Of a stretch of 58,735 bases of DNA, positions 1 through 30,443 are shown piece by piece (within the stretch, counting starts at the first letter, position 1; every line of letters starts with the position of its first letter). Source of the DNA: a virus; IMG/VR virus record IMGVR_UViG_3300021379_000824, positions 1 through 58,735 of that record; one strand, written 5' to 3'. The notes beneath the pieces are model-generated. The model saw nothing but the letters and a program-made list of their open reading frames with translations. It searched no databases and was not told the origin of the DNA. The translations under genes and the position numbers were made by a program.

Positions 1-457
1 TTATTCTATCACGTACTTGTTGTTTAAGTTTGTTATCACTTTCTGCGTGATAGCTAACTGTAATGTGTCCTAAATTTTCCATTACTGCATCAGCCATTTT
101 TGCGCTCATTGCACCATTACTTGTAAGTGCAAAACCACAAGCCCATTTATCTTGATACTTAGCTTCGTATTCTTCTTTTAAATATTTTACAAAAGGAATA
201 AAATTTGGATTTACAGTGGGTTCGCCGCCTGTAAAACTTATACTTGTGTGTTTATAAGTACGTTTTTCCATATAAGTGTCAATATATTCAAATAAGAAAT
301 CTACAGCACTTTTAAGTTCATCTAAACTAGCGTGAGGACTAAAGTTATCGTGCCTATGTGCAGGACAATAACTACAATCGTAATTGCAACGTCTGCCTAA
401 ATCCCAAGTAACTTGGAAAACTTTGCCTGTTAATAAATCAACTGTATCAAAACTCAT
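1..457 (-). CDS. Radical-SAM protein, 3' end missing (window edge)
   Basis: The reading frame starts at an ATG that overlaps the stop of the preceding gene by one base (TAATG) and runs off the left edge, so about 152 N-terminal residues are present. Near residue 24 it carries the radical-SAM iron-sulfur motif C-x3-C-x2-C (RRCNYDCSYCPAHRH), and further on the GGEP motif (SFTGGEPTVNPNF) that contacts the SAM amino group. There is no N-terminal twitch domain; the radical-SAM core begins almost at once. It is the last visible member of a run of seven radical-SAM genes in the same leftward operon. The substrate is unknown. The family call is firm; function beyond SAM-dependent radical chemistry cannot be given from this fragment. 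Confidence 0.9.
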   Translation of the reverse strand, partial: MSFDTVDLLTGKVFQVTWDLGRRCNYDCSYCPAHRHDNFSPHASLDELKSAVDFLFEYIDTYMEKRTYKHTSISFTGGEPTVNPNFIPFVKYLKEEYEAKYQDKWACGFALTSNGAMSAKMADAVMENLGHITVSYHAESDNKLKQQVRDRI

Positions 458-1770
458 TAAATATAATCCTTAAATATAGGTTCCACATCAAGTAAACTTT
501 CAGCTCTAATTTTATCTAAAGTATCGGTATACTGTTTAAAATAATCCCAATGCTCATTATGATAGCTTTCGCTTGACATATAACTTATTACGCTGTTGCG
601 TATATCTTTTGCTTTATTTTTAGTGTTTTCAGGAAAATCTGAAGTTTCGATCCAATCAATAAATCCGTCAAAATTTTCTGTAACTTTGTTTTTCAGTTCA
701 TCTGGTAGCACACGGATATTTAAGTGTTTAGGATGATGTGCCATATGGAAAGTGATAATAGGTTTACTTTTAAAACAGTTCAGTTTTTTGAAATTACTTT
801 CTGTAAGTTTCCATTTCATAAAATCTACCATATGGTTTACATTGTATGCTGTTACTGTAAATGCTAACCAAGCAATAATATTCGGAGATGATGCATCTAA
901 ACTATATAAATTTTTTAATAACTTGCTCCATTTGGCCGGATTTCGTTGATATTCCAATACTTTACCCATTCCATCTATACTAGCACCTACTCTAACTTGT
1001 TTAAATTGCTTCCACATATCAATTACTCTTGGAGGCAATGTGCTCATATTTGTATTATATTCCACAATAATATTTTTAGCGTTATCTGTTTCAATACAAT
1101 GTTCTAGAAAATCATAATGTCTATCAATCAACATAGGCTCTCCGCCGGCAAAGTATACGTGCTCAATGTTTTCAACATTTTTATATAATTGTTGCCAAAA
1201 ACTTTCGTTGTGAACCCAATTATACGCATCGGATACTAGTTTATTGCCTTTACGGTATATTTGCACCTCGCCACTGGTTTCTTTATATGTTGTTTTACCA
1301 GTTAGCTTTTCCCAATCTTCATACCAAGTGTCACTATCGGTAGGACCACACATACGACATTTTAAATTACAGAAGTTTCCAAAACGCAAATCGTAATATT
1401 GAACAGGATTTTCATCAGTATCGATAGTGCCATCTTCATTAGTTATACTTTTTGCTATATCAAACGTAAAATTAGGCCAGTTTTTTTCTTCGTATTTGCG
1501 TCTACTGTTTAATCCGTTAAGTTCTTCGTTTTTACAACGTCCGCATTCATCGCTCCATACACCATTCAACATATTAAGTCTAACATTTTTCATAAGTTCG
1601 GCATTACGTGCTTCATTTAGATCATCTATGCCAACATTATAAGCAGTACCATCTTCTTTTCGTATTACGCCTTGATTTTTTGTTATGTTGGCCTGACAAC
1701 ATATTCTAATATCTCCATTGCTTCTTGCTGCTTGGAATATCCAAGGTATAGGACAAAATGTTTCTGTCAT
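457..1770 (-). CDS. Radical-SAM protein with N-terminal twitch domain
   Basis: This 437-residue protein has a cysteine-rich N-terminal domain (Cys6 in FCPIPW, Cys24-Cys25 in ICC, Cys76-x2-Cys79) like the half-SPASM or twitch domain that binds an auxiliary Fe-S cluster, here placed before the radical-SAM core. The core has FCNLKCRMC (Cys134, Cys138, Cys141) and FAGGEPM near residue 208. This order matches the N-terminal-twitch radical-SAM family frequent in marine phages and in some bacterial gene clusters. Its start overlaps the previous stop by one base (TAATG), implying translational coupling. It resembles the products at 1770-2915, 4269-5597, 6432-7832 and 17278-18651, so the set probably arose by duplication. 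The substrate is unknown. Confidence 0.92.
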   Translation of the reverse strand: MTETFCPIPWIFQAARSNGDIRICCQANITKNQGVIRKEDGTAYNVGIDDLNEARNAELMKNVRLNMLNGVWSDECGRCKNEELNGLNSRRKYEEKNWPNFTFDIAKSITNEDGTIDTDENPVQYYDLRFGNFCNLKCRMCGPTDSDTWYEDWEKLTGKTTYKETSGEVQIYRKGNKLVSDAYNWVHNESFWQQLYKNVENIEHVYFAGGEPMLIDRHYDFLEHCIETDNAKNIIVEYNTNMSTLPPRVIDMWKQFKQVRVGASIDGMGKVLEYQRNPAKWSKLLKNLYSLDASSPNIIAWLAFTVTAYNVNHMVDFMKWKLTESNFKKLNCFKSKPIITFHMAHHPKHLNIRVLPDELKNKVTENFDGFIDWIETSDFPENTKNKAKDIRNSVISYMSSESYHNEHWDYFKQYTDTLDKIRAESLLDVEPIFKDYI

Positions 1771-2915
1771 TAAAATAACTCCGGGGTAATCAATGGTTCA
1801 AGTTTTTCCCATAATTCTTGATTTTTATCCATCCAATGTTCGTTTCTAATCTTATTAAGCTGACTATCGTTGCGCACAAATAGCCCAAAATCTCCTGGTG
1901 TTTGCATTTCATTAATTAACAGTTTAAATATTTTTCTATATTGAACAGGATATTTACTTTGCTTTTCTTCTATGTAATTTAAAATCCAAGATTTTAACGA
2001 TTCTGGTAAATGGCGTGACCGCATCCATTCCGGACCGTCAACAACTACGCATTCATGCCATAGTTTTTCTTCTATACAAAAATCAATAATTTCGTGTATT
2101 TTGTTTATATTGTAAATACTTATTGCACTATGAACATTTATATTGTCAAAATGTTTTTTGTACCATTGAATGTTATTATATACATTTTCCCAATCACTAT
2201 CCTTACGTAAAAAATCATTCAATCTACCATAACTATCAATACTTAAATCAATGTTTACTTTTTTACAGTTTTTAAGTAATTGTAATAGTTTTTCATTAGG
2301 AACAATTGATGCATTTGTAACTAATAAAATAGTGATATTTTCAATAGTGCATTTATTAAGAACTTTTATCAACTTTTCTTGCTCCATCATGGGCTCACCG
2401 CCTAATACTTTGATGAAACGTAAATCACTCAGATCATATTCGTCAACGATAGTGTTATCTGTAATAACACCACGTGGTATTTCAATTCCTAATTTCTTTG
2501 CATCACTATACCAATGTGTACTTAATTGCGGAATACACATTCTACATTTGTTATTACAAACATTAGATAGTGCTAAATCAATGTTTGTCAATTTTTTAAT
2601 TTTTCCTCTACCTTCTTCTACCGAAGGTAAACCAAAATCACTTGTCCAAGGAGAAATTAAATCTAATCTCATACTCCTTGCACTGTGTTTTTCATCTTCG
2701 TAACATTTCTTACAACCGTGAACATACTCGTCATTGAGCATTTTTTGTCGCAACCAATTCATATACTCGTGATTAAATGGATCAGGATGTGCTACATTAA
2801 GATCTTTAGGAACTTCATCTTGTTCAAACACACAGCAAGGAAATATTTGTCCATCAGGACGCATTGCCATATGATGAAATGGCATAACACAAGCATATTT
2901 TGGTGGTTTATCCAT
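1770..2915 (-). CDS. Radical-SAM protein with N-terminal twitch domain
   Basis: I start this at MDKPPKYACVMPFHH (381 residues). That ATG overlaps the upstream stop by 8 nt, like several neighbours, and keeps the family's short lead before the first cysteine. An in-frame ATG nine codons upstream is less likely. The N-terminal domain has Cys9, Cys27-Cys28 (PCC) and a later C-x2-C (GCKKC). The core has VCNNKCRMC and KVLGGEPMM. The auxiliary-cluster cysteines and the radical-SAM triad are all present, so the enzyme looks intact. It is coupled to the SDR-like gene upstream and to another twitch radical-SAM gene downstream. The substrate is unknown; from its neighbours I infer a role in the same pathway as the two QueC-like proteins. 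Confidence 0.9.
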   Translation of the reverse strand: MDKPPKYACVMPFHHMAMRPDGQIFPCCVFEQDEVPKDLNVAHPDPFNHEYMNWLRQKMLNDEYVHGCKKCYEDEKHSARSMRLDLISPWTSDFGLPSVEEGRGKIKKLTNIDLALSNVCNNKCRMCIPQLSTHWYSDAKKLGIEIPRGVITDNTIVDEYDLSDLRFIKVLGGEPMMEQEKLIKVLNKCTIENITILLVTNASIVPNEKLLQLLKNCKKVNIDLSIDSYGRLNDFLRKDSDWENVYNNIQWYKKHFDNINVHSAISIYNINKIHEIIDFCIEEKLWHECVVVDGPEWMRSRHLPESLKSWILNYIEEKQSKYPVQYRKIFKLLINEMQTPGDFGLFVRNDSQLNKIRNEHWMDKNQELWEKLEPLITPELF

Positions 2916-3462
2916 TCCAATATTCCGGTTGCATTGGATCAATACTTAATTCATTAATGTTTAAATGTTTAGGAGTATCAACAATCCATTTGATGTATTC
3001 AGCAGCCGCATCAATATCCATACATTTTCTATCAGGATGCTTTTGTTGATTATTACTTAGTGTGCCAAAACTGATATAACTGATTTTTGGTCCACTTGCC
3101 CAAACACCTGTTAGCCCTAATGTGTTTGAATAATCTCGCAATGCCTTCTTTTCTGCATTGTACAGCCAAGCACCGCCTTTTTTTACTCTATCTGTTGTAC
3201 TACCTATATTGATAATATGACAGTTATGCTTTACTAACACACATTTTTTGTAAACAATGTCTAACAAACTGGTTTGATTAAACCTAAACAAAGCACTACA
3301 ATTAACAAAAACGTCATGTTCTAGTACTGCTTCTGCACATCGTTCCATATCTAACTTTTTACCGAAATCGTATCCAGTTTCTCTACTGATGAATTCTGCA
3401 TCAGGATAAATTTTTGCCAATGCAGCAGCTACTCCAAAGTCTTTATTACCTGTTATAATCAT
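2908..3462 (-). CDS. Short-chain dehydrogenase/reductase-like protein
   Basis: This 184-residue protein begins with a strand and glycine loop (MIITGNKDFGVAAALA) resembling the TGxxxGxG nucleotide-binding loop of SDR enzymes. It later has IINIGSTTD followed by YNAEKKAL, matching the SDR catalytic Ser and Tyr-x3-Lys. It is short for the family (usually about 250 residues), and the glycine loop is degenerate, so it may bind NAD(P) in a reduced Rossmann fold or have lost activity. Its ATG has a good ribosome binding site (AAGGGA) and lies 17 nt inside the end of the PP-loop gene. It is the only oxidoreductase of this kind in the operon, and could reduce or epimerise an intermediate. Confidence 0.7.
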   Translation of the reverse strand: MIITGNKDFGVAAALAKIYPDAEFISRETGYDFGKKLDMERCAEAVLEHDVFVNCSALFRFNQTSLLDIVYKKCVLVKHNCHIINIGSTTDRVKKGGAWLYNAEKKALRDYSNTLGLTGVWASGPKISYISFGTLSNNQQKHPDRKCMDIDAAAEYIKWIVDTPKHLNINELSIDPMQPEYWNG

Positions 3463-4276
3463 TTATTTCCCTTATTACACTACCTACACGTTTATTTGCC
3501 CATTCACGTTCTTCGCACCACCAGCATTGTTTGCATTCCGGTATGTACATACCTACTTTGTAATCTTTAAAATGCCCACAAGCGTCTTTTACAATGTCGT
3601 GATGATTTATATCGCCTTCGCAACTGCGTGTAATCTTATATAAATCTAATATATTGTGTATATAATACTGTGCTACAATCCAATCTTTTTTTACAAATCT
3701 AAAAGGATGCACAAATGTTGCATTTACCTTGCCGCTGTAAAACCATAAATCAGTTAATTGTCCATCTTCTGCATCTTTGTCTCTGTTGGTCATACGATCT
3801 TCACGCAAATCATCAGGATTTTTACTAGTTGCATTGTACACTGCATCCAAGTTGTATTCCCAAGCAGCAAATTTATTAAAACTACCAACAATAATTTGGT
3901 CTCCGCTGCGTCCGTCTATTACAGGACCAATGACTCCGTGTTCTAATTCTGGAGGAATGTAGGTTGTATATCTGTTTTCAATAATATAAGGAAACAAGTC
4001 ATTTAGTTTATTAAAAACTTGCATAGAAATATAACCTTGCCAAGGTCTTGTTTCCCAACAACGTTGATATGTGATAATATCGACTTTAGTATTCAAATTA
4101 TATCTTTGTATCATACTGCAAAGCAAGTATGTAAGTAATGCACTATCTGCCCCACCGCTGAGATTTACACCGATACGTTGCCATTTTCCGTCTATAGGAA
4201 TACTCAAATGCGACACAGTGTGTAACAAAACATTATCAGCAATATTTTTATACAAGCTATTGTTTACTTCATACAT
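3446..4276 (-). CDS. QueC-like PP-loop ATPase (copy 1)
   Basis: This 276-residue protein has the PP-loop SGGADS (residues 40-45, NLSGGADSALLTYLL), which binds ATP pyrophosphate and allows adenylation of a carbonyl or carboxylate. The C-terminal third has TRSCEGD and then ECKQCWWCEE. One cysteine followed by C-x2-C-x2-C is the zinc-site pattern of QueC, the enzyme that turns 7-carboxy-7-deazaguanine into preQ0. Overall sequence and context are not those of a normal queuosine operon: no QueD and no QueE-type protein is seen. I therefore call it QueC-like and leave the substrate open. It overlaps the preceding radical-SAM gene by 8 nt and is a paralog of the 5594-6442 product. Confidence 0.85.
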   Translation of the reverse strand: MYEVNNSLYKNIADNVLLHTVSHLSIPIDGKWQRIGVNLSGGADSALLTYLLCSMIQRYNLNTKVDIITYQRCWETRPWQGYISMQVFNKLNDLFPYIIENRYTTYIPPELEHGVIGPVIDGRSGDQIIVGSFNKFAAWEYNLDAVYNATSKNPDDLREDRMTNRDKDAEDGQLTDLWFYSGKVNATFVHPFRFVKKDWIVAQYYIHNILDLYKITRSCEGDINHHDIVKDACGHFKDYKVGMYIPECKQCWWCEEREWANKRVGSVIREINDYNR

Positions 4277-5597
4277 TATAAACTAATTCTCCGTCTACGA
4301 ACTTAAAACGTTGTATATGATCATTGAAGTTTTGATTCCACAATAAATCTGATTTAGGAATATATTTTAACAGGGCTTGATAATCTTTATTTGTGGCTTG
4401 GTGTTTCATAACATATTCACGCACTTGCTCAATGGCTTGCAATGCACTGGTAATATCCGTCCACCATCCGTATTTTATTTCTTCATCCCAAACATAATTA
4501 TACATTTCTTTGGTTGTAAGTATGTTTCTTCTACGTTCTTTATCTAATTTAATTACTGCATTCCTTGCATTCTCAATTTCATTAAGTGTCGGTCCTCTGT
4601 ATTTTAACATCATTACACTAGGATTTAAATACGCAGGTGTATAAACAATGCTGCAATTTATATAATCTAATTCAAGCGACAAAAACCCACGCATAACATC
4701 TTCAAATTCCATCAACTGATATACACTTGTAGTACATACCAAGTTTATATGACTGTGCTTGTTATCAACTGCTTTGAATTTTTCTATGTTTTCTTTTAAC
4801 TTGTTCCAATCTCCTTGTCTAAAGTATGGATACAGTCGAGGTCCTGCATCTACACTTATCATTATATTACAATATCCAAATTTTTTCAAGAGAAAACTTA
4901 GGGCTTCTGGATCAAAATCTGCATTAAAATTGCTGTGGAATATAATTTTTATGTTTTCAGCATTTGGGTGTTCACTAAGTTTTTCTAGTGTGGGCAAAAA
5001 TTGCTTTTGATACAGCACTTCGCCGCCTGCAAAATCAATTCGTTCCAAGTTAGGAAAGTTTTTGTTTAAATCTTCGGCTATTTCTAATGCACGTTTGGTG
5101 CTGATTTGCATTGTAAAATCATCATCAACAGATGATCTGTGCATACGTCCGGTAAGTTGATGTAATTGGTGTTTGTAATCATCATCATCAGGTTCATATC
5201 CTTTGAGTTTTTTCATCCAACCACTACTAAACACTTGACTGCAATGCAAACAAGCCATGTTACAACTGTGACTAAAACGTATTTCTACTGTTTTGAGGCC
5301 TGCAAAATCTACTTCACCTGTTTCTGGATTGTAATATTTGAGATCTGCTTCCTGTTCTTGGCGCATACTTTTGCCAGCTCGATCTCTTTCAACGTGTTCG
5401 CACATATCACAGCCTACGCTCCACTCACCACGCATCATTTCCAGTCTATGTTTGCGGAATAGTTCGTTGTTATAGAACTCGCTGGGCAACCAAGCATCAT
5501 CTAAAATTTGCATTTTTTCGTGCTGCTGCGGACAACTTGTTACAAAGCCGTTTTTAAAGTTTAATCCACCTATTGTATAGTAACAAGGTAAGCTCAT
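4269..5597 (-). CDS. Twitch radical-SAM protein paired with QueC-like copy 1
   Basis: I start this at MSLPCYYTIGG (442 residues), whose ATG forms an ATGA overlap with the upstream stop and has GGAG in the right place. An in-frame ATG nine codons earlier lacks this support. The N-terminal cysteines (CYYTIGG, TSCPQQ, GCDMC) suggest an auxiliary cluster domain. The core has HSCNMACLHCSQ and DFAGGEVLY, so the usual GGEP reads GGEV. The motif order matches its paralogs. It is the second half of a repeated unit, radical-SAM then QueC-like, with the first unit at 5594-7832. The two products probably act in sequence on related substrates; this is inferred from gene order only. Confidence 0.9.
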   Translation of the reverse strand: MSLPCYYTIGGLNFKNGFVTSCPQQHEKMQILDDAWLPSEFYNNELFRKHRLEMMRGEWSVGCDMCEHVERDRAGKSMRQEQEADLKYYNPETGEVDFAGLKTVEIRFSHSCNMACLHCSQVFSSGWMKKLKGYEPDDDDYKHQLHQLTGRMHRSSVDDDFTMQISTKRALEIAEDLNKNFPNLERIDFAGGEVLYQKQFLPTLEKLSEHPNAENIKIIFHSNFNADFDPEALSFLLKKFGYCNIMISVDAGPRLYPYFRQGDWNKLKENIEKFKAVDNKHSHINLVCTTSVYQLMEFEDVMRGFLSLELDYINCSIVYTPAYLNPSVMMLKYRGPTLNEIENARNAVIKLDKERRRNILTTKEMYNYVWDEEIKYGWWTDITSALQAIEQVREYVMKHQATNKDYQALLKYIPKSDLLWNQNFNDHIQRFKFVDGELVYNV

Positions 5598-6442
5598 ATA
5601 TTCTCCAATAAGAAGCCATTGCAATTATCCAAGCCCCATTGCTTTTCTTGACAGAAAAAACAGTGTCCGCACTCTGGTGGATATTGTCTATTGCGTCTAT
5701 ATTCTTCGCCAAACTCTCTTACATCGCCTTCGCAACTTCTAGTAAGTTTTAACAAATCCCATTGATTGTAATTATGATACTGTGCCATTGTAAAGTTTTT
5801 TCGTAGTAAACCAAATGGATTAATAGCAGGTCCGCTAATAACCCAATCCCAGTTGTCTTTCATATATTCTTCGTTACGGAACGTGGGTTCATCTTCAGTA
5901 GCAAACGGCGGATTCATAGTGATACCAGTGTATATTAGATCAATATTGTATCTGTGCATTACGTATTCTTGGAAATCTAATGTACATAACACATCACAGT
6001 TTGCTTCCCTTGGTAGTTTTGTAAACAAGTGTTCTTTGCCTAAACGTGTAAGCGGTACATCTTCAAACTCTGGAGGTAAAAAGCCCCACACTTGTTCTTG
6101 TATAATATTTGGAAAACGTGCCTTTAAATAATTATACACATCTTCTGCCATTGGGGAAAGCCAAGGCTTTTCTTTCCAAAAACGCACAAGTGTCATACAG
6201 TAAATTTTGTTATTGTAATTGTTTTTTTCTATGTAATCACAAAGCATATAAGTTAGGATACTACTATCTGCACCACCACTTAAACTAACCAGTAAGTTTT
6301 TTGCATTGGGATCAAAATGCACAGGTAATCCATTTATTCTATGTAACTCAGGATATGGTCTAAACAGTAATTCATAAGTGTCTATAAATTTTTTGTTTTT
6401 ATATCCTTGTTCTAAATAGTCAAGATAGTGTTTATCGTCCAT
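5594..6442 (-). CDS. QueC-like PP-loop ATPase (copy 2)
   Basis: I start this at MDDKHYLDYLEQG (282 residues). This ATG lies 11 nt inside the upstream gene and gives a length close to the 276-residue paralog; a longer frame with 37 more residues exists but adds nothing family-like. The PP-loop SGGADS is at residues 55-60 (VSLSGGADSSILTYML). The C-terminal zinc-type cysteines are TRSCEGD and ECGHCFFCQE (C-x2-C-x2-C). WKEKPWLSPM and a following PPEFE segment align with the other copy (WETRPWQGYI, PPELE). It presumably adenylates an acid or amide and exchanges it with a nitrogen nucleophile, as QueC does, but the substrate is unknown. Confidence 0.87.
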   Translation of the reverse strand: MDDKHYLDYLEQGYKNKKFIDTYELLFRPYPELHRINGLPVHFDPNAKNLLVSLSGGADSSILTYMLCDYIEKNNYNNKIYCMTLVRFWKEKPWLSPMAEDVYNYLKARFPNIIQEQVWGFLPPEFEDVPLTRLGKEHLFTKLPREANCDVLCTLDFQEYVMHRYNIDLIYTGITMNPPFATEDEPTFRNEEYMKDNWDWVISGPAINPFGLLRKNFTMAQYHNYNQWDLLKLTRSCEGDVREFGEEYRRNRQYPPECGHCFFCQEKQWGLDNCNGFLLENI

Positions 6443-7832
6443 CAAATATGTCCTGCATTTTAGGAAATACTTCTGCAAAGCTGTTACCACGTTGTGCATC
6501 ACATCTTTGTAAAAACTCTTGCATTTCTGGCAAACGTCTACTCCAGTCTTCACTTTCCATAAAACTTAGCATTCCTTCTAATCTTTTTAATCCATAAGGA
6601 GCAACTTTCCATTGATCATAAGTTACTTTACCCTTATGCCAACTAGGTACACCTAGTTCCCAATTTTCTTCCCACCAAGGATAAAATTCCTCATACTTTT
6701 TACGCACTTCTGCTTTAAACCATTCGGGCAATACTTTTACATTAAGGTGTGGAGGATGGTATACAAAGTGATAATTAATACCACCTGCACCAAATGGCCA
6801 CATATTAATTTTTTTAAACTTTTGCGTTAATTTCCATTTTATAAAATCTGGCAAGTAATAAATGTTTAAGGCTTGTACTGCACAAGCAATTGTAATTTCT
6901 ACATTGTTACTAGTTTCATTATCTAATATATGAAATACTTCTTCTGTACGTTGCCACTTACTTGGATAACGTATATAATCATTCATTTCGTGTATGCTAT
7001 CTACACTATAATGGAATCGTACTAATTTAAATTCTTTCCATAGATCAAATAAATCCTCTCTCCATTCAACTCCATTTGAGTTATAACGTAGTTCAAGATC
7101 TTTTGCAATACCTTGTCGTATTGCTTCTTCAAGTATTTCATAATGCTCCTCAATAATAAGACTTTCGCCACCTGCAAAATAAATTTGCTGCATATTTGGC
7201 ATTTGTTCATAAAACTGTTTCCAAAATACAGGATTTTGCTTATGCCAATTATAACTACTACCGTTTGTGCTACCTTTGTCTTGCCATTGCATTGTTTCTT
7301 TTAACGATTCATTTTGAACTGCTGGAAAAATCTTTTTGTAGTCTTTGATCCAACCCGAACTATCATGGGGTGAACACATTACACAAGCAAGTTGACATTT
7401 TGTACCAAAACGCAAATCAATATATGCAAGCTGTGGAGGTACTTCCCCGTCCTCTGTTGTATTAGCAATTAAGTCATCTACATTTACACGCTGACTCCAA
7501 TATGCAGTTTCCCACATACGTTTACTATTGTGCCCAGCAGCTTCTTCTTTGTAACATTTTAAACAACTAGGAGGCATTTCTCCATTCATCATTTGTTTAC
7601 GTACATTTTTCATATACTTGCTGTTCCAAGCAGTTTGGAAATCTGTAACATTCAAATTATTTGGTTTACCATCATCTGTTTTTAATATGCCAACTTGTCC
7701 GCCGTGTTCTTTGTCGTTGGTTGGTCCAACACTTGATGCATTTGCTGTACAGCAAACTCTCATACTACCGTCGGGTCTTGTGCTTAGATGCACCCAAGGA
7801 AGGATGCAAAAGGTATCGCTTACTTTACTCAT
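6432..7832 (-). CDS. Twitch radical-SAM protein paired with QueC-like copy 2
   Basis: This 466-residue protein has the clearest N-terminal twitch signature of the set: TFCILPWVHLSTRPDGSMRVCC, and SCLKC later. The core has TKCQLACVMCSPHDSSGW and YFAGGESL. Its ATG follows an AGGTAAG-type ribosome binding site and a 42-nt gap after the 7875-8945 gene, the only real spacing in this part of the operon. It overlaps the start of the QueC-like gene by 11 nt. It is closest in motif layout to the 457-1770 protein (CPIPW versus CILPW; QIYFAGGES versus HVYFAGGEP). Function: SAM radical chemistry on an unknown substrate, probably upstream of ATP-dependent amidation by its partner. Confidence 0.92.
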   Translation of the reverse strand: MSKVSDTFCILPWVHLSTRPDGSMRVCCTANASSVGPTNDKEHGGQVGILKTDDGKPNNLNVTDFQTAWNSKYMKNVRKQMMNGEMPPSCLKCYKEEAAGHNSKRMWETAYWSQRVNVDDLIANTTEDGEVPPQLAYIDLRFGTKCQLACVMCSPHDSSGWIKDYKKIFPAVQNESLKETMQWQDKGSTNGSSYNWHKQNPVFWKQFYEQMPNMQQIYFAGGESLIIEEHYEILEEAIRQGIAKDLELRYNSNGVEWREDLFDLWKEFKLVRFHYSVDSIHEMNDYIRYPSKWQRTEEVFHILDNETSNNVEITIACAVQALNIYYLPDFIKWKLTQKFKKINMWPFGAGGINYHFVYHPPHLNVKVLPEWFKAEVRKKYEEFYPWWEENWELGVPSWHKGKVTYDQWKVAPYGLKRLEGMLSFMESEDWSRRLPEMQEFLQRCDAQRGNSFAEVFPKMQDIFDGR

Positions 7833-7874: not shown

Positions 7875-8945
7875 TCATTTCCTTGTTTCGTTGGTTTCAA
7901 CATAGTATAGCTCATTGTGATATGCTTTGTTTTTTGCACAAGTTTTTATACATCTAGTCAAATGTAAAGGATGCCCAGGTGTCCAACTAGCTTCCAAAAG
8001 TTTTTTATACCATTCATGATTTAAAATGTCATCTAAACTATGTTTTTGCAAACTATTCCATCCATCGTTAAAATAGTTTAATTTGTCTACAATTTTTTCA
8101 GAATTTTTAAAAACACTATCCCATAAAAAACAACAAGGCCAGACAGTTAAATCATTTGCAATAAAAATTTCTTGTTCGTGAACATATTTACAAGTGATTG
8201 TATCAATAATATTTTTTACTTTTTCTTGGTTAGTGTCACGCTTTTTTGTTTTGTATTCCAAAATAAATTTATCTAATTCTTTTGCTACATCTTTTTGTTT
8301 GTGTTCTTTACTTCCAGTGGTAGTAATTACTTTTGTTTCTTTATTGTTTTTCTTACCAATATGAGATATCCATTGATGGTAACTGTTACGCATACCTGTT
8401 CTAGTTGCAAAATCAAAACCTAATACAGCAGCGTGAGCTCGTGCTGTTACCAAATCTTTTTCGTTATGATCAAATTCAATAAACACCCACGTGGCGTGTT
8501 GTTCTGGTGCATTTTCTGCAAATGCTATCATATTACGTTCTATTGTTGACCATTTTGTATTCACTCTATAAATATGATTAGTATCTTTGTGTCCATCAAC
8601 ACAAAAATGTACGTGCAATTTACCTATATATTTTTGAGCTAATTTTCCTAAATCTATCCACCATTGTTGACTGTTATATCCTCCGTTTGTGCTGTATTCA
8701 CAATAAGCATTTCTTTCTAAAAGATATTCAGTCATTTTATAACAATCAGGATTAACTATTGGATCTCCTAACACACCGCAAAACTTAAATTCAACACCAT
8801 TGTAATTATCATTTGGGAAAATTCTTTTTAGGTCTTCAAAAGTAAAAGAATTAACTTTTAAATGATTACTATGCAAAGTTCTTGCACAGCCTGGACAAGC
8901 TGCATTACAATCACTAGTAATTTCTAGTTCCACTTTTTGTATCAT
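7875..8945 (-). CDS. Radical-SAM protein with C-terminal SPASM-like cysteines
   Basis: This 356-residue protein has its radical-SAM triad near the N-terminus (SDCNAACPGCAR), and GDPIVNP in place of a GGEP motif. The C-terminal half holds further cysteines: TCKYVHEQE, WPCCFLW and RCIKTCAKN. This arrangement is like a SPASM domain carrying one or two auxiliary clusters. It differs from the neighbouring twitch-first proteins and is a paralog of the next gene upstream (8942-10021), with which it shares GDPIV and DTNHIYR or DTNHLYR. The ATG overlaps the preceding stop by 4 nt (ATGA). SPASM enzymes act on peptides, and some on sugars or other small molecules; the substrate here is unknown. Confidence 0.9.
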   Translation of the reverse strand: MIQKVELEITSDCNAACPGCARTLHSNHLKVNSFTFEDLKRIFPNDNYNGVEFKFCGVLGDPIVNPDCYKMTEYLLERNAYCEYSTNGGYNSQQWWIDLGKLAQKYIGKLHVHFCVDGHKDTNHIYRVNTKWSTIERNMIAFAENAPEQHATWVFIEFDHNEKDLVTARAHAAVLGFDFATRTGMRNSYHQWISHIGKKNNKETKVITTTGSKEHKQKDVAKELDKFILEYKTKKRDTNQEKVKNIIDTITCKYVHEQEIFIANDLTVWPCCFLWDSVFKNSEKIVDKLNYFNDGWNSLQKHSLDDILNHEWYKKLLEASWTPGHPLHLTRCIKTCAKNKAYHNELYYVETNETRK

Positions 8946-10021
8946 TTAAATTGTGCTCCAAACGGATCAAACTCTTTACCGCACTTCATACTACAAACTT
9001 TTAATTTGCCATCTGCACAACTAGGCTTGTTCCAACTGGCTTCTATGTTATCAAATATACCTGTATCAAACACTGCACGTAATCCGTGTGTCTTAGCATC
9101 GATTGCATTTTTGCCGCCTACGTCATCAATGAAGTCCCATACTTGTTCTACTTTAGGATCTTTGTGCCACCATTTATACATACGTCCAGCAGTCCAACAA
9201 CAAGGCATTGCAAGTCCTTCTGCTGTTATAAACAAGTTGCCTTCGTCTTTGACTTTACATTGTATTTCTGCTCTGTCATAGTATGCATCCATTGTACCGT
9301 GTTTGCTTTTTACCTGGTCATATTGTTTTATAGCTTGGTTTTGATATTTTTCATCTGGCTTCTTAAGTTGTGCAGTCTTGTTTCCTTTTTTATCTACTGC
9401 TTGATGTGACTCTTTCTTTTCACTACTAGCAGTTACAAATCTACCTGTTTTTTTAGATACAAATCTTTCAAAGCCCATACGTTCACTGATTTCTCTTGCT
9501 TCTTCAACTTGATGTTGATTATGCTCAAAAATTAGGAAATCCCAACGTGCCCTTCCTCCGGCAGCAATAAAACTACGCATTGCTCGTTCTACATTATCCC
9601 ATACAACACCCTGCCTGTATAGATGATTAGTGTCACTAAGACCATCCACGCTAAAAATAACAGTGCCCATCCTGCCGTAGATTTTGGCCAATTCAGCCCA
9701 CCATGCTTCATCTCTTGCTCCTGCGTTTGTATTCATGCTGAGCCACATATCTTTGTTGTGTTCTCTAAAATATTTGAATATTTCAAGTGTATCTCGTGCA
9801 ACAATAGGATCTCCTAAATTGCCACACATATACATTGTTTTTAATTGTGCAATAAACTCTGGTTCAAATATACGTTTACAATCTTCTAGTGTAAGTTCAT
9901 TCAAATCTATATGCGGATTTAATGCGCCTCCGTTTTGATTACGATCACACATAGGGCAATTAGCCTGACAGTTTTGTGTATTTTCTAAGTGTATACTTCT
10001 TATATCTTCATACTTATACAT
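8942..10021 (-). CDS. Radical-SAM protein with C-terminal SPASM-like cysteines
   Basis: This 359-residue protein starts with a short lead into NCQANCPMCDRNQNGG, the C-x3-C-x2-C cluster motif, followed by MCGNLGDPIV and FSVDGLSDTNHLYR. The C-terminal region has QCKVKDEG, MPCCWT, SCADG and VCSMKCGKE, enough cysteines for SPASM auxiliary clusters. It pairs with the 7875-8945 product as a tandem duplication. The start overlaps the preceding gene by 8 nt (ATGTATAA). Because the two copies lie directly after a carbohydrate-type block (an SGNH-like and a glycosyltransferase-like gene), a sugar or glycoconjugate substrate is possible, but nothing in the sequence settles this. Confidence 0.9.
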   Translation of the reverse strand: MYKYEDIRSIHLENTQNCQANCPMCDRNQNGGALNPHIDLNELTLEDCKRIFEPEFIAQLKTMYMCGNLGDPIVARDTLEIFKYFREHNKDMWLSMNTNAGARDEAWWAELAKIYGRMGTVIFSVDGLSDTNHLYRQGVVWDNVERAMRSFIAAGGRARWDFLIFEHNQHQVEEAREISERMGFERFVSKKTGRFVTASSEKKESHQAVDKKGNKTAQLKKPDEKYQNQAIKQYDQVKSKHGTMDAYYDRAEIQCKVKDEGNLFITAEGLAMPCCWTAGRMYKWWHKDPKVEQVWDFIDDVGGKNAIDAKTHGLRAVFDTGIFDNIEASWNKPSCADGKLKVCSMKCGKEFDPFGAQFK

Positions 10022-10745: not shown

Positions 10746-11877
10746 TTTGACTCCTTGCATAAAGTAATAATGCTTCCTTTAATGTATTTTTTCTGCGACT
10801 AAGTCTATATAATTCTAAATTATATTTTAAAGCATAATGCATTTCTTTCCGTATATCTAATAAACTTGCTGTGTCATATTTTTTAAGTTTGTTTAAGTTA
10901 TCAATAATTATTTTTATTCTGTGTTCAATAGGATAATCGTTATCGTAGCTTTCATTCCACCAATACTCAAAAGTTATATATCCTTTATTCCTTAATTCTT
11001 GTATTATGCCAGGATTACCTAAAGTCATAAAAGGCATTCCAATACCCAACGGTTTATAAACTTTTTCACTGAGCAAAAGTCTATCATTTTCCACATCGGT
11101 CTCTGTATTTAAGAACAAAAAACTTTCACTACATTCTTTTGGAACAGAGTTGGTAGGCATTGTACTACTCAAATCCGTTATATCTAATACATCAAATTTC
11201 ATTCTATCAATTTGAGTATTTGGATACATTTTTTTATAAAATTGGAATTCGTCAAATACATTTCCCCAAGTATTATAACCGTCGTGAAAAAGATTTTTTG
11301 CTATCAATTGATCTAATAGTAAACAACGATGGTATCTAGCTACTCTAGTAAGATTTATATATAATTTTTTTGGATTATATTCAACTACATCGTCGTAAGG
11401 TTGAAAACGATTCTTCCATCTATCATCGTAAAAAGATTTTCCGTGTTTGCTGTCAAATTTTTTATCAACTGTAACAGCAAAAAATTTTATATAAGGATAT
11501 TTAACAATAAAGTAATCAAGGGTCTCGGCGTGTGTTTTTGGACATTCCATAATTTCACCAATGCACACATGAACATTAGGCAAAGACAAAAAATTTTTAT
11601 TTTCGTTTAAAAAAATGTCAAATTTATTTTTCCAACGTTCCACTTTTTCAATTTTGTCATTTTTAATGTAAGGAACTTGAACAATATAAAATTTATCTTC
11701 TCTGTAAGTTTTTGTGTAATCAACTTCGTCAACACTATCGTTGAAATCTGCAATTACATCCATTAAAATATAATTATACCAAGGAGCACGTAAGGCACGG
11801 TTATAAACTGTTATACCTCTATCATCAAAAAATTCATAATGTTTTTTGCCGAGGTATTTCATTACAATTTTAGTCAT
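10738..11877 (-). CDS. Glycosyltransferase-like protein of unknown specificity
   Basis: This 379-residue protein has a C-terminal segment with FLNTETDVENDRLLLSEK, then VYKPLGIGMPFMTLGNPG and GYITFEYWWNESYD. This pattern (SEK, KPL..G.PF, G.PG, GY.TF....NESYD) recurs in phage and bacterial proteins thought to have a GT-B-like or fucosyltransferase-like nucleotide-sugar site. The N-terminal half is not recognised. The gene overlaps its neighbours by 8 nt on each side and so belongs to the same operon. Transfer of a sugar to a phage or host target is inferred from the C-terminal pattern and from the other glycosyltransferase-type genes nearby. Confidence 0.5.
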   Translation of the reverse strand: MTKIVMKYLGKKHYEFFDDRGITVYNRALRAPWYNYILMDVIADFNDSVDEVDYTKTYREDKFYIVQVPYIKNDKIEKVERWKNKFDIFLNENKNFLSLPNVHVCIGEIMECPKTHAETLDYFIVKYPYIKFFAVTVDKKFDSKHGKSFYDDRWKNRFQPYDDVVEYNPKKLYINLTRVARYHRCLLLDQLIAKNLFHDGYNTWGNVFDEFQFYKKMYPNTQIDRMKFDVLDITDLSSTMPTNSVPKECSESFLFLNTETDVENDRLLLSEKVYKPLGIGMPFMTLGNPGIIQELRNKGYITFEYWWNESYDNDYPIEHRIKIIIDNLNKLKKYDTASLLDIRKEMHYALKYNLELYRLSRRKNTLKEALLLYARSQNV

Positions 11878-12094
11878 CTAAAATTAACCTAACATCTTTT
11901 CCAGGACTTGTTTTGCTAGGTAAACCTCCATACTGCTCTATGTACCATTCAATAACAGCCTTATACCAGTTTTGACTGTTATGATGTGCTTTTTTATTAA
12001 ACTGCCAAATATTGTTATTTGTTGCTTGCATTGTGCTCAATGCTCTAGCACTTTCTTTTTGTAATTGTCTTACATCTAAATCATTTATATCCAA
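11870..12094 (-). CDS. Small protein of unknown function, TTG start
   Basis: The frame opens with TTG (MDINDLDVRQLQKESA), 74 residues, overlapping the methyltransferase gene by 14 nt. If only ATG is accepted, the first is at residue 22 and leaves 53 residues. The protein is polar, with no cysteines, no signal peptide and no transmembrane stretch. It contains two Trp-rich segments (NIWQFNKKAHHNSQNWYKAVIEW as two halves) and ends in LILDD. I do not recognise a family. Size and place, between a methyltransferase and a glycosyltransferase-like gene, would suit a small accessory subunit. A peptide substrate for the radical-SAM enzymes is possible but has no positive evidence. Confidence 0.55.
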   Translation of the reverse strand: MDINDLDVRQLQKESARALSTMQATNNNIWQFNKKAHHNSQNWYKAVIEWYIEQYGGLPSKTSPGKDVRLILDD

Positions 12095-13121
12095 TTTTCA
12101 TAAACCTTTTGTACTGTGTCAAATCTAGTTCACCTTCATATAAAACATTAGACATTGGTGTTTTTTTGCTAAATTCTTCTAACGTTTTGCTGCAATTAAC
12201 GTGTTCTTTAATTTCAAAATAATTATTATTTTGTAATACTATTAGTTGACCTGGAATAATTTTACTATACCAATCTTGAAAATCTTCAATATGTTCAGTG
12301 CTGGTATTTATAATTGTATTAGGATAACTCCATAGAGTTTCAATGGTACCGTTATTTTTTTCTACGTCATATATGTGTTCGTCAAATCGTAGTTCATGTA
12401 TGTCTTGTGTACAGGATTTAAATTTCCATTCGTTTATAATCCAAGGTTTGTTAAAAATATTTGAAATTTGTAAAGTACTTGGGTCTATATCGAAACTTAT
12501 AATTTCATCTACATTAATGTCAGATTCAAAAATCATAGTAGCTAATGTTGCATACCATCCTGCACATAAAAATACAACACCTAAATCTCTGTTAATTTCT
12601 TTTAATTTTTCAACTAGCCATTGTTTACTTTTTATTTGTCCTCTGCTGAGGCAATCTTTATCAAATTCAATATTATTTGTTATTAGATCTTTTAGAGCTT
12701 TTACAAAATGACTATCTGTATGTTTTTCTAGTATCCTAAACATACTCCACATATTGTCATCTAATATTAGTTTTTTTAAATCTTCGTCGCCAATCATTCT
12801 AAAAATACTGTGTATATTATTTTCGGTTACTGATTTTCTTAAATCTTCGTTTCCTGGTAGTAATCTAAATAAACTGTGTAAATTATTTTCTAAAACTGCT
12901 TTACGCAAATCTTCCAAATCGCCTATGCATCTTTTGTTTTCAACAATTCTAAAAATACTATGTATATTATTTTCTAAAACAGCTTTACGTAATTCTTCAT
13001 TGTCACTTAATTTCAGAATGCTATGCAAATCTTCATCAACATATGATCTACGTAATAATTCGAAATTTGTATCGTTTTTATTTAATATTTCAAATCTATC
13101 TAGTACTTCAAATATTTCCAT
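12081..13121 (-). CDS. SAM-methyltransferase-like protein with N-terminal tandem repeats
   Basis: I start this at MEIFEVLDRFEILNK (346 residues) because AAGGAAAA stands 8 nt before that ATG; an ATG ten codons earlier lacks this. Residues about 19-131 are five repeats of roughly 21-28 residues built on the core DLRKAVLENNIHSIFR. The C-terminal part looks like a class I methyltransferase fold: VVFLCAGWYATLATM at the SAM-binding loop, then IISFDIDPSTLQIS with an acidic ribose-binding residue, then NTIINTSTEHIED. The usual GxGxG is replaced by CAGWYA, so SAM binding is inferred from the strand-loop-acid pattern. The repeats may form a helical solenoid for partner binding. The methyl acceptor is unknown. 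Confidence 0.68.
   Translation of the reverse strand: MEIFEVLDRFEILNKNDTNFELLRRSYVDEDLHSILKLSDNEELRKAVLENNIHSIFRIVENKRCIGDLEDLRKAVLENNLHSLFRLLPGNEDLRKSVTENNIHSIFRMIGDEDLKKLILDDNMWSMFRILEKHTDSHFVKALKDLITNNIEFDKDCLSRGQIKSKQWLVEKLKEINRDLGVVFLCAGWYATLATMIFESDINVDEIISFDIDPSTLQISNIFNKPWIINEWKFKSCTQDIHELRFDEHIYDVEKNNGTIETLWSYPNTIINTSTEHIEDFQDWYSKIIPGQLIVLQNNNYFEIKEHVNCSKTLEEFSKKTPMSNVLYEGELDLTQYKRFMKIGYK
12729..13067 (-). repeat. Five tandem ~21-28-residue coding repeats in the methyltransferase gene
   Basis: The repeat core is seen at protein level as EELRKAVLENNIHSIFR, EDLRKAVLENNLHSLFR, EDLRKSVTENNIHSIFR and EDLKKLILDDNMWSMFR, preceded by a more diverged unit ending DEDLHSILKL. The middle copies are also similar at DNA level; for example, near-identical runs around a TGTATATTATTTTC core recur at about 12815 and 12961. 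The conserved EN-N-HS-FR pattern implies a repeated helix-turn unit. High DNA identity between copies suggests recent amplification and the possibility of copy-number change by recombination. Confidence 0.85.
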
Positions 13122-14142
13122 CAAATTTTTCCTTAAGCCAATCAAAGTCATTAATTAAACGTAATTCATCTGGTTTGTTTTTGTTTCTTGCGCCATATGA
13201 TGCACCTGCTTTTGCTCCAATAAGAGCATATTCTCCAAATTTAGGATCACCTTCAATATATGTACACCAAGTTCTTAAACGTTCATTTGTTTCTTGGCTT
13301 TTTTGCCTATCAATTACTTTACTACTTAGTTTACAACATTCTCTAAAAGCACTCTTCCACGTATTAAAAGGATCTGTGTTAAAGGCTGTAACGTTAGATA
13401 TTTTATTCATTGCTACAAATTTATCACTAACACTTGTTGTCATATCTGGTTTACTTACATCCATAACAAGAGTTTTTTCTGTTGGAAAAAGTTTCACTCC
13501 GCCATATCCATATACTAGTCCATTAACTGGATTCATACTGCGCCATACGTGTACGGCTTGCTTATTGTGATGTTCTGGAATATAATCAAAAGAAAATTCG
13601 TCTGTTAGTTGTGCATCACCATCTATGATCCAAAACATATCAGTTTCACACAAACTTGCAGCAGCAATATGAGCTTGATGTATTCCTTTGACACCGTGTA
13701 TACGTTTTACATCTGGAAAACGTGCTAAAACACGTTCATAATTTTCATCAGCATTAGGTTCATTGTAACTTATAAAAACTTTATCAAAATTTGAGATAAC
13801 AGGTTTACTTGCTTGAATAGGTACGAATTTTTTGTTTATATAAAATCTTGCTTTTAATTCACCAGGTCCATGATGACTGTTTTTTGGCATTAAACACACA
13901 CCGTCATAAAAGTCACCATTCTTAAATACGTGAGTATATGTGTTGTTATATTCATCAACTGTATAATTAAAATCAAAGTCTTCGTCAACCACAAGGTTAT
14001 CATAAACAATCCAAAGCATTTTTGTAAGACTTTTACGTTTTGCTTGTGGAACATTTTCAGCATATTTTGCTGTGGGAAATCTAGTTTTTAGTTTTGTGAA
14101 TTGTAACTCAGACGGATTGCCAATATAAAAAATATCATACAT
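13108..14142 (-). CDS. GT-A-type glycosyltransferase-like protein
   Basis: This 344-residue protein has VFISYNEPNADENYERVL followed by RIHGVKGIHQAHIAAAS and then MFWIIDGDAQL. The DGD triad in this setting is the metal and nucleotide-sugar motif of GT-A family transferases. The same signature recurs in the 18651-19577 product (YLSYDEPNAEQNF, RVHGVKG, VDGDNRI), so the two are paralogs; this one has about 115 extra N-terminal residues. It is the first gene of the leftward operon. No ribosome binding site precedes the ATG, and the consensus promoter lies so close that transcription should start at or within a base or two of the ATG. It is probably read from a leaderless mRNA. Sugar donor and acceptor are unknown. 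Confidence 0.72.
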   Translation of the reverse strand: MYDIFYIGNPSELQFTKLKTRFPTAKYAENVPQAKRKSLTKMLWIVYDNLVVDEDFDFNYTVDEYNNTYTHVFKNGDFYDGVCLMPKNSHHGPGELKARFYINKKFVPIQASKPVISNFDKVFISYNEPNADENYERVLARFPDVKRIHGVKGIHQAHIAAASLCETDMFWIIDGDAQLTDEFSFDYIPEHHNKQAVHVWRSMNPVNGLVYGYGGVKLFPTEKTLVMDVSKPDMTTSVSDKFVAMNKISNVTAFNTDPFNTWKSAFRECCKLSSKVIDRQKSQETNERLRTWCTYIEGDPKFGEYALIGAKAGASYGARNKNKPDELRLINDFDWLKEKFDGNI

Positions 14143-16706: not shown

Positions 16707-17313
16707 ACTAGAAGTTTACGACGGTACACAGGATTTAGAAGATTGGTACGAAGGTGCTGCTGCTAGAGGCTTTTACAACAACCATAACAAAACAGTGCTT
16801 ATTGATTATATTGATAAGCACGAAGATGCTACACTAATACTTTTATATTATAAAGACAGAGTAATAGGCACAACAATCACACACAGTTTGCGTCAACTAG
16901 GAATATTAGGTAAAGATGCACATCGTATTGCTGCACGTACAGCATTGCTTATTGAACGTGTGGATGACATACGTGGACACAAAGTACACAACAATGATCG
17001 CAGCCCAATGAATCATCACACAAGTCAAATGCTAACACCTGCTTGTTTTTATTACTTAGGGCTAGACAAGCCTATGTATGTAAGCACAAACAACTTAGAG
17101 ACAGCAAGCCAACGTAAAGTGCATAGAACTTGGGCAAAGATTATGCATAGACACAAATATCTTAAAGATCCTTTTGAACTAGAGTACAAAGGTGCATTTC
17201 AAACATTTTGGAAAGTAGATGTTGAACACTGGTTAAATGATTTGTCTAAAGTGCAATGGCCCGAATCAAAACAAGTGCTAGACGTATTTGCTGCACAACT
17301 CAAAAAAGTCTGA
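16699..17313 (+). CDS. GNAT-acyltransferase-like protein, TTG start
   Basis: No ATG suits the beginning. A TTG giving MYRLEVYDG (204 residues) is preceded by AGGA at 9 nt and overlaps the adenylating-enzyme gene by 8 nt, the same overlap length used by many genes here. A TTG six codons earlier is also open. The segment LILLYYKDRVIGTTITHSL resembles the central strands of GNAT acyltransferases, and PMYVSTNNLETASQRKVHRTW resembles their late part, where neighbours of the acyl-CoA site lie; the match is weak. Coupling to an acyl-activating enzyme supports acyl transfer. The 3' end overlaps the convergent radical-SAM gene by 36 nt. Confidence 0.5.
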   Translation: MYRLEVYDGTQDLEDWYEGAAARGFYNNHNKTVLIDYIDKHEDATLILLYYKDRVIGTTITHSLRQLGILGKDAHRIAARTALLIERVDDIRGHKVHNNDRSPMNHHTSQMLTPACFYYLGLDKPMYVSTNNLETASQRKVHRTWAKIMHRHKYLKDPFELEYKGAFQTFWKVDVEHWLNDLSKVQWPESKQVLDVFAAQLKKV

Positions 17314-18651: not shown

Positions 18652-19577
18652 TATTGTTCTCTATCTAAAAATTTTCTACTGTTGTCTCTTACAGGATTTT
18701 GGTATACATTTTTAAAGAACATACTTTGTTGTGCGTTTAAAGGATCTTCAGCAATGGGTATATTTAATTCTTCAATTAATTTTTCGCCTAAATAATTAGT
18801 ATCCAATTCCATGCTTTCTTCATCAAATTCACCTTTTTGATCCCAATATTCATTAAGCCATTCAAAATCACGTACATTAACATAATCCCAATCTGTACAC
18901 ATAGTTTTGTACAAACCTTCTCTAGCACCGTATATAGCCCAACGTCCGTTTTCAACGTCTGCACCTACCATTAACCAAATATACAATCGGTGTAAGTTTT
19001 TCCAGTGATTACGTTTAAATCCTTCATAGTCAGGACGAACACCTTGATCTAATGCCATTTTAACGCCTTCACGGAAACCAGCACGCCACGCCTGATGAGG
19101 TGTAGCATTGTTATATATCATACTATATGTTCCGTTCATTTGTACATATTCAGTATCCCAACAAAAATCTACCTGTGCGTGTGGATTATCTTTTGGAGCA
19201 TTTTCGTGTGTGCGCATATTTAAAACATGACTCTTAGGCCAACATTTAATTCCGCCGTTTCCATACGCTAATCCGTTGATTATATTTTCAGCAGTCCAAC
19301 TAATAACCTTATTAGTTAAATCAGTATCTTCATCAAAGTTTATAACCTGTGACAAAAAATCATCTCTAATTCTATTATCACCATCTACGGTAATAAATCT
19401 ATCTGTTGTAGATTTTTCAGCAGCAGCTTTGTGTGCGCTATCACTACCTTTTACACCATGTACTCGTTCGGCCCAAGGAACCTTACTACATAAGTCTGCA
19501 AAATTTTGTTCTGCATTTGGTTCGTCATATGACAAGTATATAATATCGTAATCAACAACTCTGAATGTGCTAGGCAT
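18651..19577 (-). CDS. GT-A-type glycosyltransferase-like protein
   Basis: I start this at MPSTFRVVDYD (308 residues); GAGGA lies before this ATG, which overlaps the upstream stop by 8 nt. Motifs are IIYLSYDEPNAEQNF, RVHGVKGSDSAHKAAAE and FITVDGDNRI; the DGD is the likely metal and nucleotide-sugar site. It is a shorter paralog of the 13108-14142 protein. NGLAYGNGGIKCWP here aligns with NGLVYGYGGVKLFP there, so conservation extends beyond the active site. The long C-terminus (YEGFKRNHWKNLHRLY, WAIYGAREG) is shared in outline (FGEYALIGAKAG). It probably modifies the same class of acceptor; the specificity is unknown. Confidence 0.72.
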   Translation of the reverse strand: MPSTFRVVDYDIIYLSYDEPNAEQNFADLCSKVPWAERVHGVKGSDSAHKAAAEKSTTDRFITVDGDNRIRDDFLSQVINFDEDTDLTNKVISWTAENIINGLAYGNGGIKCWPKSHVLNMRTHENAPKDNPHAQVDFCWDTEYVQMNGTYSMIYNNATPHQAWRAGFREGVKMALDQGVRPDYEGFKRNHWKNLHRLYIWLMVGADVENGRWAIYGAREGLYKTMCTDWDYVNVRDFEWLNEYWDQKGEFDEESMELDTNYLGEKLIEELNIPIAEDPLNAQQSMFFKNVYQNPVRDNSRKFLDREQ

Positions 19578-30435: not shown

Positions 30436-30443
30436 TATTTATC
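30436..30443 (-). promoter_or_regulatory. T4-type late promoter (GATAAATA)
   Basis: On the minus strand GATAAATAC stands 23 nt before the ATG at 30412 and overlaps the last codons of the giant gene. The following bases AATATAGGA are also found after the late-type element at 54505, which supports both being functional. Confidence 0.75.

Follow-up and report, generated by a model that had tools for sequence, protein, structure and literature searches.

What might a marine phage make with two QueC-superfamily PP-loop proteins (Q1 and Q2) that alternate with two twitch radical-SAM genes (rS3 and rS4)? QueC is an ATP-using enzyme that makes amides and nitriles, and it is fed by QueE, a radical-SAM enzyme. 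The window analysed here is the whole of a 58,735-nucleotide stretch from an uncultured marine T4-type virus (positions 1-58,735 of IMG/VR record IMGVR_UViG_3300021379_000824). A preliminary description had reported the order radical-SAM then PP-loop twice in succession, and this order was confirmed: the minus strand reads rS4, Q2, rS3 and Q1 from 7832 to 3446. The genes are intact and real, neighbouring members overlap by 4-17 bases, and all four are under strong purifying selection. The island extends further than that description had seen, and the window holds seven radical-SAM genes. The features considered are the following.

457..1770, minus strand: rS1, twitch radical-SAM protein (NF033640)
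1770..2942, minus strand: rS2, twitch radical-SAM protein (NF033640)
2908..3462, minus strand: SDR-like short protein, 184 aa (weak SDR matches)
3446..4276, minus strand: Q1, QueC-superfamily PP-loop protein, 276 aa (motifs, model, QueC profile match)
4269..5597, minus strand: rS3, N-terminal twitch radical-SAM protein, 442 aa (NF033640; own clade)
5594..6442, minus strand: Q2, second QueC-superfamily PP-loop protein, 282 aa (homology to Q1, tree)
6432..7832, minus strand: rS4, N-terminal twitch radical-SAM protein, 466 aa (NF033640)
7875..8945, minus strand: rS5, radical-SAM/SPASM-like protein (domain and family profile searches)
8942..10021, minus strand: rS6, radical-SAM protein (PF04055, 36.2 bits)
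11870..12094, minus strand: small protein, 74 aa (alignment and profile search)
12081..13151, minus strand: putative class I methyltransferase, repeat region at the N-terminus (tentative; motifs, weak PDB similarity)
13108..14142, minus strand: GT-A-like glycosyltransferase paralogue, DGD motif (aligned with the modelled paralogue)
17278..18651, minus strand: rS7, further radical-SAM protein outside the core operon (PF04055, phrog_14086)
18651..19580, minus strand: GT-A-like glycosyltransferase, DGD motif, modelled (fold matches)

The operon has a conserved order (methyltransferase, 74-aa protein, rS6, rS5, rS4, (Q2), rS3, Q1, SDR-like protein, rS2, rS1), and the island is situated near tail-fibre genes. 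Comparison with the N_Twi_rSAM family NF033640, whose curated cut-off is 170 bits, upheld the proposed twitch radical-SAM identity of rS3 (187.8 bits) and rS4 (422.9 bits). The cut-off is also passed by rS1 (373.7 bits) and rS2 (239.7 bits), while rS5 and rS6 score below it; rS7 matches phrog_14086 and reaches 26.2 bits on PF04055, under the cut-off of 29.5. The operon carries several distinct, conserved radical-SAM orthologues, and their sharing of one operon with QueC-like ligases sets it apart from N_Twi_rSAM as known. Bacterial N_Twi_rSAM searches match broadly on the radical-SAM core, with only 3 of 299 genomes passing the curated cut-off. Sequence and relatives place the start of rS3 most likely at ATG 5597, the listed reading frame beginning at TTG 5624. 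For Q2 the most likely start is ATG 6442 (282 aa) and not the listed GTG 6553, so the CQKC near the listed N-terminus probably falls outside the gene.

The repeated order had been read as a duplicated cassette, with the proposed check of whether the radical-SAM and PP-loop trees duplicate together; both trees went against this reading. Among 148 radical-SAM proteins placed in one tree, rS3 forms a deep clade of its own and rS4 groups with rS1-type proteins; the two are not sisters and share only 26% identity. Q1 is homologous to Q2 (30% identity across 263 aa, E 5e-43), but they belong to separate old clades, their split predating that between distant viruses carrying Q1. Tandem duplication of a radical-SAM/QueC pair was rejected on both trees. 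Of 37 close loci, 11 keep Q1 while Q2 was not seen there. The near-identical contig L001 carries another QueC-like gene, the third and a more distant one, outside the window and some kb beyond its start (L001:14690-15340). Q1, Q2 and rS3 covary more among themselves than with rS4 (partial correlations 0.50-0.71 vs 0.15-0.37, from 120 non-independent pairs), a modest signal that does not amount to proof of pairing.

The assignment of both proteins to the QueC superfamily was borne out by profile-profile comparison (E 2.7e-8; 194 columns aligned, the cysteines among them) and by fold matches to Cap9 and phage QueC. Both PP-loops are kept as described, each reading SGGADS, and so are the zinc-type cysteines, with a C-terminal CxxCxxC and an SCE cysteine upstream in either protein; in Q1 these are SGGADS 40-45, SCE 218-220 and C248-x2-C251-x2-C254. 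SGGxDS occurs in 74 of 74 aligned members, which had been picked on that motif, and SCE and CxxCxxC are intact across the family. The profile comparison took in QueC, WbuX and TilS among PP-loop families; QueC aligned with the Q profile end to end, whereas WbuX aligned over 34 columns and TilS over 20-52 columns, at the ATP loop only. Orthology to sugar amidotransferases, an example that the preliminary description gave of what would overturn its view, was rejected for the N-acetyl sugar amidotransferase WbuX/WbpG (TIGR03573), as just 34 columns around the loop align and NCBIfam gave no match. The Q1 model has a pLDDT of 95.8 and a confident PP-loop fold. The 50 top-ranked fold matches in the PDB contain a single QueC-family protein, Cap9 of type IV CBASS (9nto_B; TM-score by target 0.62). 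Searching PDB sequences with individual proteins gave nothing.

Q differs from canonical QueC (PF06508 cluster 1) in the substrate motifs of that enzyme. The likeness includes the SGGxDS loop, a conserved lysine, a cysteine plus CxxCxxC, and a partner radical-SAM enzyme in the pathway proposed below. With respect to the QueC zinc site C(x)8CxxCxxC, the four cysteines of Q come in the same order, but in Q1 the first of them lies further from CxxCxxC and SCY is replaced by SCE, so that a zinc site in Q is putative. YPDC is missing, and queD and queE are not alongside. YxQxHxxE and VPxRN were each found in 0 of 74 Q relatives and YxDC in 1 of 74, compared with 18, 18 and 19 of 20 QueC controls, respectively. 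The position of the tyrosine Y189 that is essential in QueC (PMC13329287) is a glutamate in Q proteins. Pfam PF06508 matched neither Q1 nor Q2 at E 0.1; among the 74 relatives, 13 gave a match with E of 0.01 or less, the lowest being 4.6e-7. Because the QueC substrate motifs are missing from nearly all relatives, canonical QueC identity was rejected and canonical preQ0 synthesis by the Q family appears unlikely.

The island is largely viral and undescribed, and its QueC-like clade is common in environmental viruses. Relatives were found in at least 492 IMG/VR stretches but in none of 50,697 phage records, in keeping with the earlier remark that the layout was an unfamiliar one for a phage; tblastn in the phage records found nothing. 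A pattern scan of 84,980 species recovered only two bacterial genomes. rS4, the best conserved gene of the operon, had only two matches in the phage records, both weak and from Vibrio phage. Among close loci with full flanks rS4 is present in 36 of 36, followed by rS5 (35), rS6 (31), rS2 (30), rS1 (27) and the SDR-like protein (26).

We put at about an even chance that the region is part of a virus-encoded biosynthetic island, near tail-fibre genes, whose pathway modifies a glycan. This is favoured because of the GT-A glycosyltransferases, the sugar-type enzymes in relatives and the proximity of tail-fibre genes. The modelled GT-A-like protein (pLDDT 88.4) has mostly glycosyltransferases as PDB fold matches, and one or both GT-A-like genes adjoin the methyltransferase in many relatives. 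The islands of relatives contain a StrB1/SxtG-type amidinotransferase, a DegT aminotransferase and an Asn synthase/GATase, and a bacterial island has a carbamoyltransferase and a SIS-domain isomerase; most neighbours in distant islands received no name from Pfam or PHROGs. The putative methyltransferase shows GGW and DIDP motifs in alignment and, in the PDB, weakly resembles spermidine synthase (E 0.017). By analogy with QueE and QueC, the neighbouring twitch radical-SAM enzymes may supply the substrates of Q1 and Q2. These would use ATP to adenylate a carboxylate, release AMP and join an amine or ammonia to give an amide, possibly a nitrile. The substrate would probably be a sugar or sugar-like unit, which phage glycosyltransferases would place on a glycan of the host surface or virion; the methyltransferase and SDR-like protein may act as tailoring steps, and Q2 as an optional extra step. 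Weighing against such a glycan product, the glycosyltransferase call is a fold match with low TM-scores (approximately 0.3), and the sugar enzymes occur in some relatives only, partly as accessory genes within a region that varies. Peptide modification, too, is typically marked by several radical-SAM/SPASM genes.

The main rival, which we judge to be clearly less probable, is modification of a protein or peptide. Twitch radical-SAM enzymes would alter residues of virion proteins or small peptides, perhaps the 74-aa protein, and the Q enzymes would attach a group at a side chain or terminus, a conjugation like that of CdnD by Cap9. Peptides are frequent substrates of twitch/SPASM-type radical-SAM enzymes, and the place of Cap9 among the fold matches fits, as do the SCE and PF(x)4K motifs that Q shares with this protein modifier (motifs per PMC13329287). 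The 74-aa protein, with 20 invariant columns across 21 aligned relatives, is strongly conserved. Profile search found it in the window and 45 loci, but only in closer viruses plus two further loci (L085 and L116). The layout gives no support for it as a RiPP precursor, a RiPP-type protease or transporter was not recognised, and this alternative leaves the sugar-type enzymes unexplained.

Deazaguanine chemistry, in which Q would act on CDG to give preQ0 or a related compound with which DNA or tRNA is modified, is improbable. Membership of the QueC superfamily and PTPS/QueD matches above cut-off in 4 of 19 larger contigs speak for it; against it stand the missing QueC motifs and the glutamate at the Y189 position, and QueD was not found in the other 15 contigs, which are fragments. 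Sulfur or amide transfer on tRNA or other RNA with radical-SAM partners, of TtuA or TilS type, is more improbable still: the best fold matches in the PDB include TtuA/NcsA and TilS, yet the TilS profile similarity is confined to the ATP loop and the window has no tRNA gene. The suggested link to Qat or type IV CBASS, as a defence or counter-defence system, is the least probable reading and was rejected. Q, given as the larger protein, shares the QueC-like fold with Cap9; QatC, likewise an enzyme of QueC fold, also has its CDG-recognition residues replaced (PMC13279940). Against the link, Q1 and Q2 have no PADLOC match (two radical-SAM genes tested gave weak viperin-type matches only), the CDG-recognition Y-x-D is lacking, and no CD-NTase, QatA, QatB or QatD was recognised among the island genes examined.

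Glycosyltransferases and radical-SAM cassettes are reported in the host-recognition clusters of pelagimyophages (PMC7029224), and a T4-like environmental genome carries 12 radical-SAM genes (PMC5332604). Both resemble the present island in being marine, T4-type and rich in radical-SAM genes, the former also in lying in a host-recognition region; the available portions of these reports give no account of QueC-like proteins, the operon order or the pathway proposed here. Returning to the biosynthetic island, we tentatively suggest that largely viral QueC-fold carboxylate-amine ligases and distinct twitch radical-SAM enzymes may act in series to build a new chemical group, in a phage-owned, natural-product-like pathway that remodels a surface or virion molecule and whose steps are exchanged between phages.

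To our knowledge, radical-SAM genes in marine T4-type phages have been noted before without explanation. In the present data they fall into orthologous groups that recur, accompanied by a ligase clade of the QueC superfamily, one common in environmental viruses and almost missing from the bacterial genomes scanned. If the proposed surface-chemistry pathway is true, it would add to QatC and Cap9 another case in which the QueC fold has been repurposed. It would also represent a large set of radical-SAM and ligase reactions still untapped, and would hint at the means by which host or virion surfaces are altered by abundant phages of the ocean.

The window, an IMG/VR virus record of 58.7 kb, has T4-type virion genes, among them those for baseplate and tail fibres, at about 24-54 kb, and a virion structural protein of 4602 aa (phrog_10938) is encoded at 30439-44247. 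A short AMP-binding (acyl-adenylate) protein, flanked by tail-like and GNAT-like genes, is encoded on the plus strand at 15717-16706. The preliminary description had claimed an alternating order of radical-SAM and PP-loop genes, with SGGADS and a set of cysteines in both PP-loop proteins. This order was recovered from 7832 down to 3446:

6432-7832, minus strand: rS4, radical-SAM protein
5594-6442, minus strand: Q2, QueC-like PP-loop protein
4269-5597, minus strand: rS3, radical-SAM protein
3446-4276, minus strand: Q1, QueC-like PP-loop protein

Two start codons were revised on the basis of the window sequence and of protein lengths in relatives: ATG 6442 is the probable start of Q2, which then shares 11 bases with the end of rS4, and ATG 5597 is the probable start of rS3, which then shares 4 bases with Q2. 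SGGADS was read in both Q1 and Q2, together with a C-terminal CxxCxxC block and an SCE cysteine ahead of it. Their 30% identity (E 5e-43) indicates homology rather than chance likeness.

Profile-profile comparison with three families (QueC, WbuX and TilS) supported the earlier QueC-like call. Because only QueC aligned over the full length of the domain, cysteines included (194 columns, E 2.7e-8; TilS, 20-52 columns), Q1 and Q2 are assigned by homology to the QueC superfamily. Orthology to the sugar amidotransferase WbuX was rejected, with 34 columns aligned versus 194 for QueC. The confident AlphaFold2 model of Q1 (pLDDT 95.8) matched mostly PP-loop enzymes in the PDB, including TtuA/NcsA, Cap9 complexed with CdnD, TilS and LarE, and most of its best matches among viral structures were annotated as phage QueC. 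Queuosine formation in E. coli needs residues of the QueC motifs YxQxH, VPxRN and YxDC (PMC13329287), and recognition of the deazaguanine by QueC and Cap9 goes through the Tyr/Asp pair (PMC13279940). These motifs were present in 18-19 of 20 bacterial QueC controls; YxQxH and VPxRN occurred in 0/74 and YxDC in 1/74 aligned family members, and canonical QueC identity was rejected on this basis. The 74 members were picked on SGGADS, which is therefore invariant by selection; the family's own conserved positions are R72, P78-W79, E112, N153-P154, R165, P191, K197, E220 and W259. The SCE and PF(x)4K described for Cap9 (PMC13329287) resemble those of the Q family. QueD was not seen in 15 of 19 contigs, these being fragments and so no proof of absence.

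The preliminary description had read the two pairs as a duplicated cassette, which did not hold. Identity between rS3 and rS4 is only 26%, and the two were not sisters in a radical-SAM tree built from 148 proteins of the window and of 21 loci (a quick method, with rough fine placement): rS3 formed its own clade with full support and rS4 clustered with rS1-type proteins. In the PP-loop tree, whose bootstrap was not fully settled, Q2 formed a clade separate from that in which Q1 of close viruses joined the lone Q proteins carried by very distant viruses. Q2 was not seen in 11 of 37 close loci, where Q1 was kept and rS3 still present. Because of the rS3/rS4 divergence, both trees and these Q2-less loci, recent duplication of one cassette was ruled out as the origin of both pairs.

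The fuller operon in relatives comprises a methyltransferase, a 74-aa protein, rS6, rS5, rS4, (Q2), rS3, Q1, an SDR-like gene, rS2 and rS1, often with an extra radical-SAM gene of about 384 aa between Q1 and the SDR-like gene. All 36 close loci whose flanks were complete had rS4; Q1 and rS5 were each present in 35, rS3 and rS6 each in 31 and Q2 in 22. Comparison with the closest relatives showed purifying selection on the operon genes (window versus L002, L005 and L036: dN/dS of about 0.03-0.08 in Q1, Q2, rS3 and rS4). Q loci spanning 16 kb or more held 4-11 radical-SAM ORFs (median 8), and large contigs held 6-21 matches to the twitch family N_Twi_rSAM; as loci were gathered by similarity to Q, these co-occurrence counts describe Q-bearing islands only.

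Several further genes were observed in these islands. The 74-aa protein (window 11870-12094) overlaps the starts of neighbouring genes and matches no known family; 20 of its alignment columns are invariant across 21 relatives. The putative methyltransferase (window 12081-13151) has N-terminal repeats (DLRKAVLENNLHSLFRL-like) in closer viruses; in distant viruses it is about 200 aa and without them. A third, distant QueC-like gene lies downstream of rS1 on a contig nearly identical to the window (L001:14690-15340). Another QueC-family protein, which passes the PF06508 cut-off, is encoded at L024:15991-16813 and extends beyond the end of that locus; its loop is degenerate (SGGMES), and it adjoins a 494-aa radical-SAM protein. 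In distant loci, a protein of ~224 aa (for example L121:7284-7958) with an HxDxDDRxH...H...R pattern and a weak Asp/Asn hydroxylase match (E 0.014) is encoded upstream of Q, usually on the other strand; its cluster is represented in 43 distant loci.

Members of the Q family are found mainly in viruses. No fewer than 492 stretches were confirmed in IMG/VR, whose contigs are mostly fragments in which a gene's absence is not proof, and three different queries found none in 50,697 phage records. A scan of genome contigs from 84,980 species confirmed at least two bacterial loci, a lower bound given its short patterns, and each of the two genomes has multiple copies. A Bdellovibrionales MAG contig (L053 / G001:C275) has three QueC-like genes, more than 10 radical-SAM genes and a carbamoyltransferase alongside, with no phage structural gene recognised among its ORFs.

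QueC adenylates a carboxylate and then forms an amide or nitrile, its substrate being supplied by the radical-SAM enzyme QueE. The intact PP-loop and cysteine site suggest that Q1 and Q2 would likewise adenylate a carboxylate, then form an amide (or nitrile). By analogy with QueE, the neighbouring radical-SAM enzymes would be natural suppliers of their substrate.

A peptide or protein is a real candidate for the target of this pathway, with Cap9-like motifs in the Q family and the conserved 74-aa protein in its favour, though its evidence is weaker than that for a glycan. Counted for a glycan are two paralogues (13108-14142 and 18651-19580) that share a GT-A-like fold and the motif DGD and adjoin the methyltransferase in many relatives, the GT-A and methyltransferase calls resting on fold or motif similarity. 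Also counted for a glycan are a StrB1/SxtG-type amidinotransferase or a DegT aminotransferase in some distant islands, an Asn synthase/GATase in one close island, and a carbamoyltransferase and a SIS-domain isomerase in the Bdellovibrionales island. Two amidinotransferases on virus contigs (L075:279-1271 and L075:9054-10268) are related to StrB1, AGAT and SxtG (profile E 1e-53 to 1bwd). On the glycan side, too, the window's phage region resembles the pelagimyophage host-recognition cluster, reported in PMC7029224 to combine glycosyltransferases with radical-SAM cassettes, and from this resemblance we infer that the window may be a pelagimyophage. We put the chances at about even that the putative pathway acts on a glycan.
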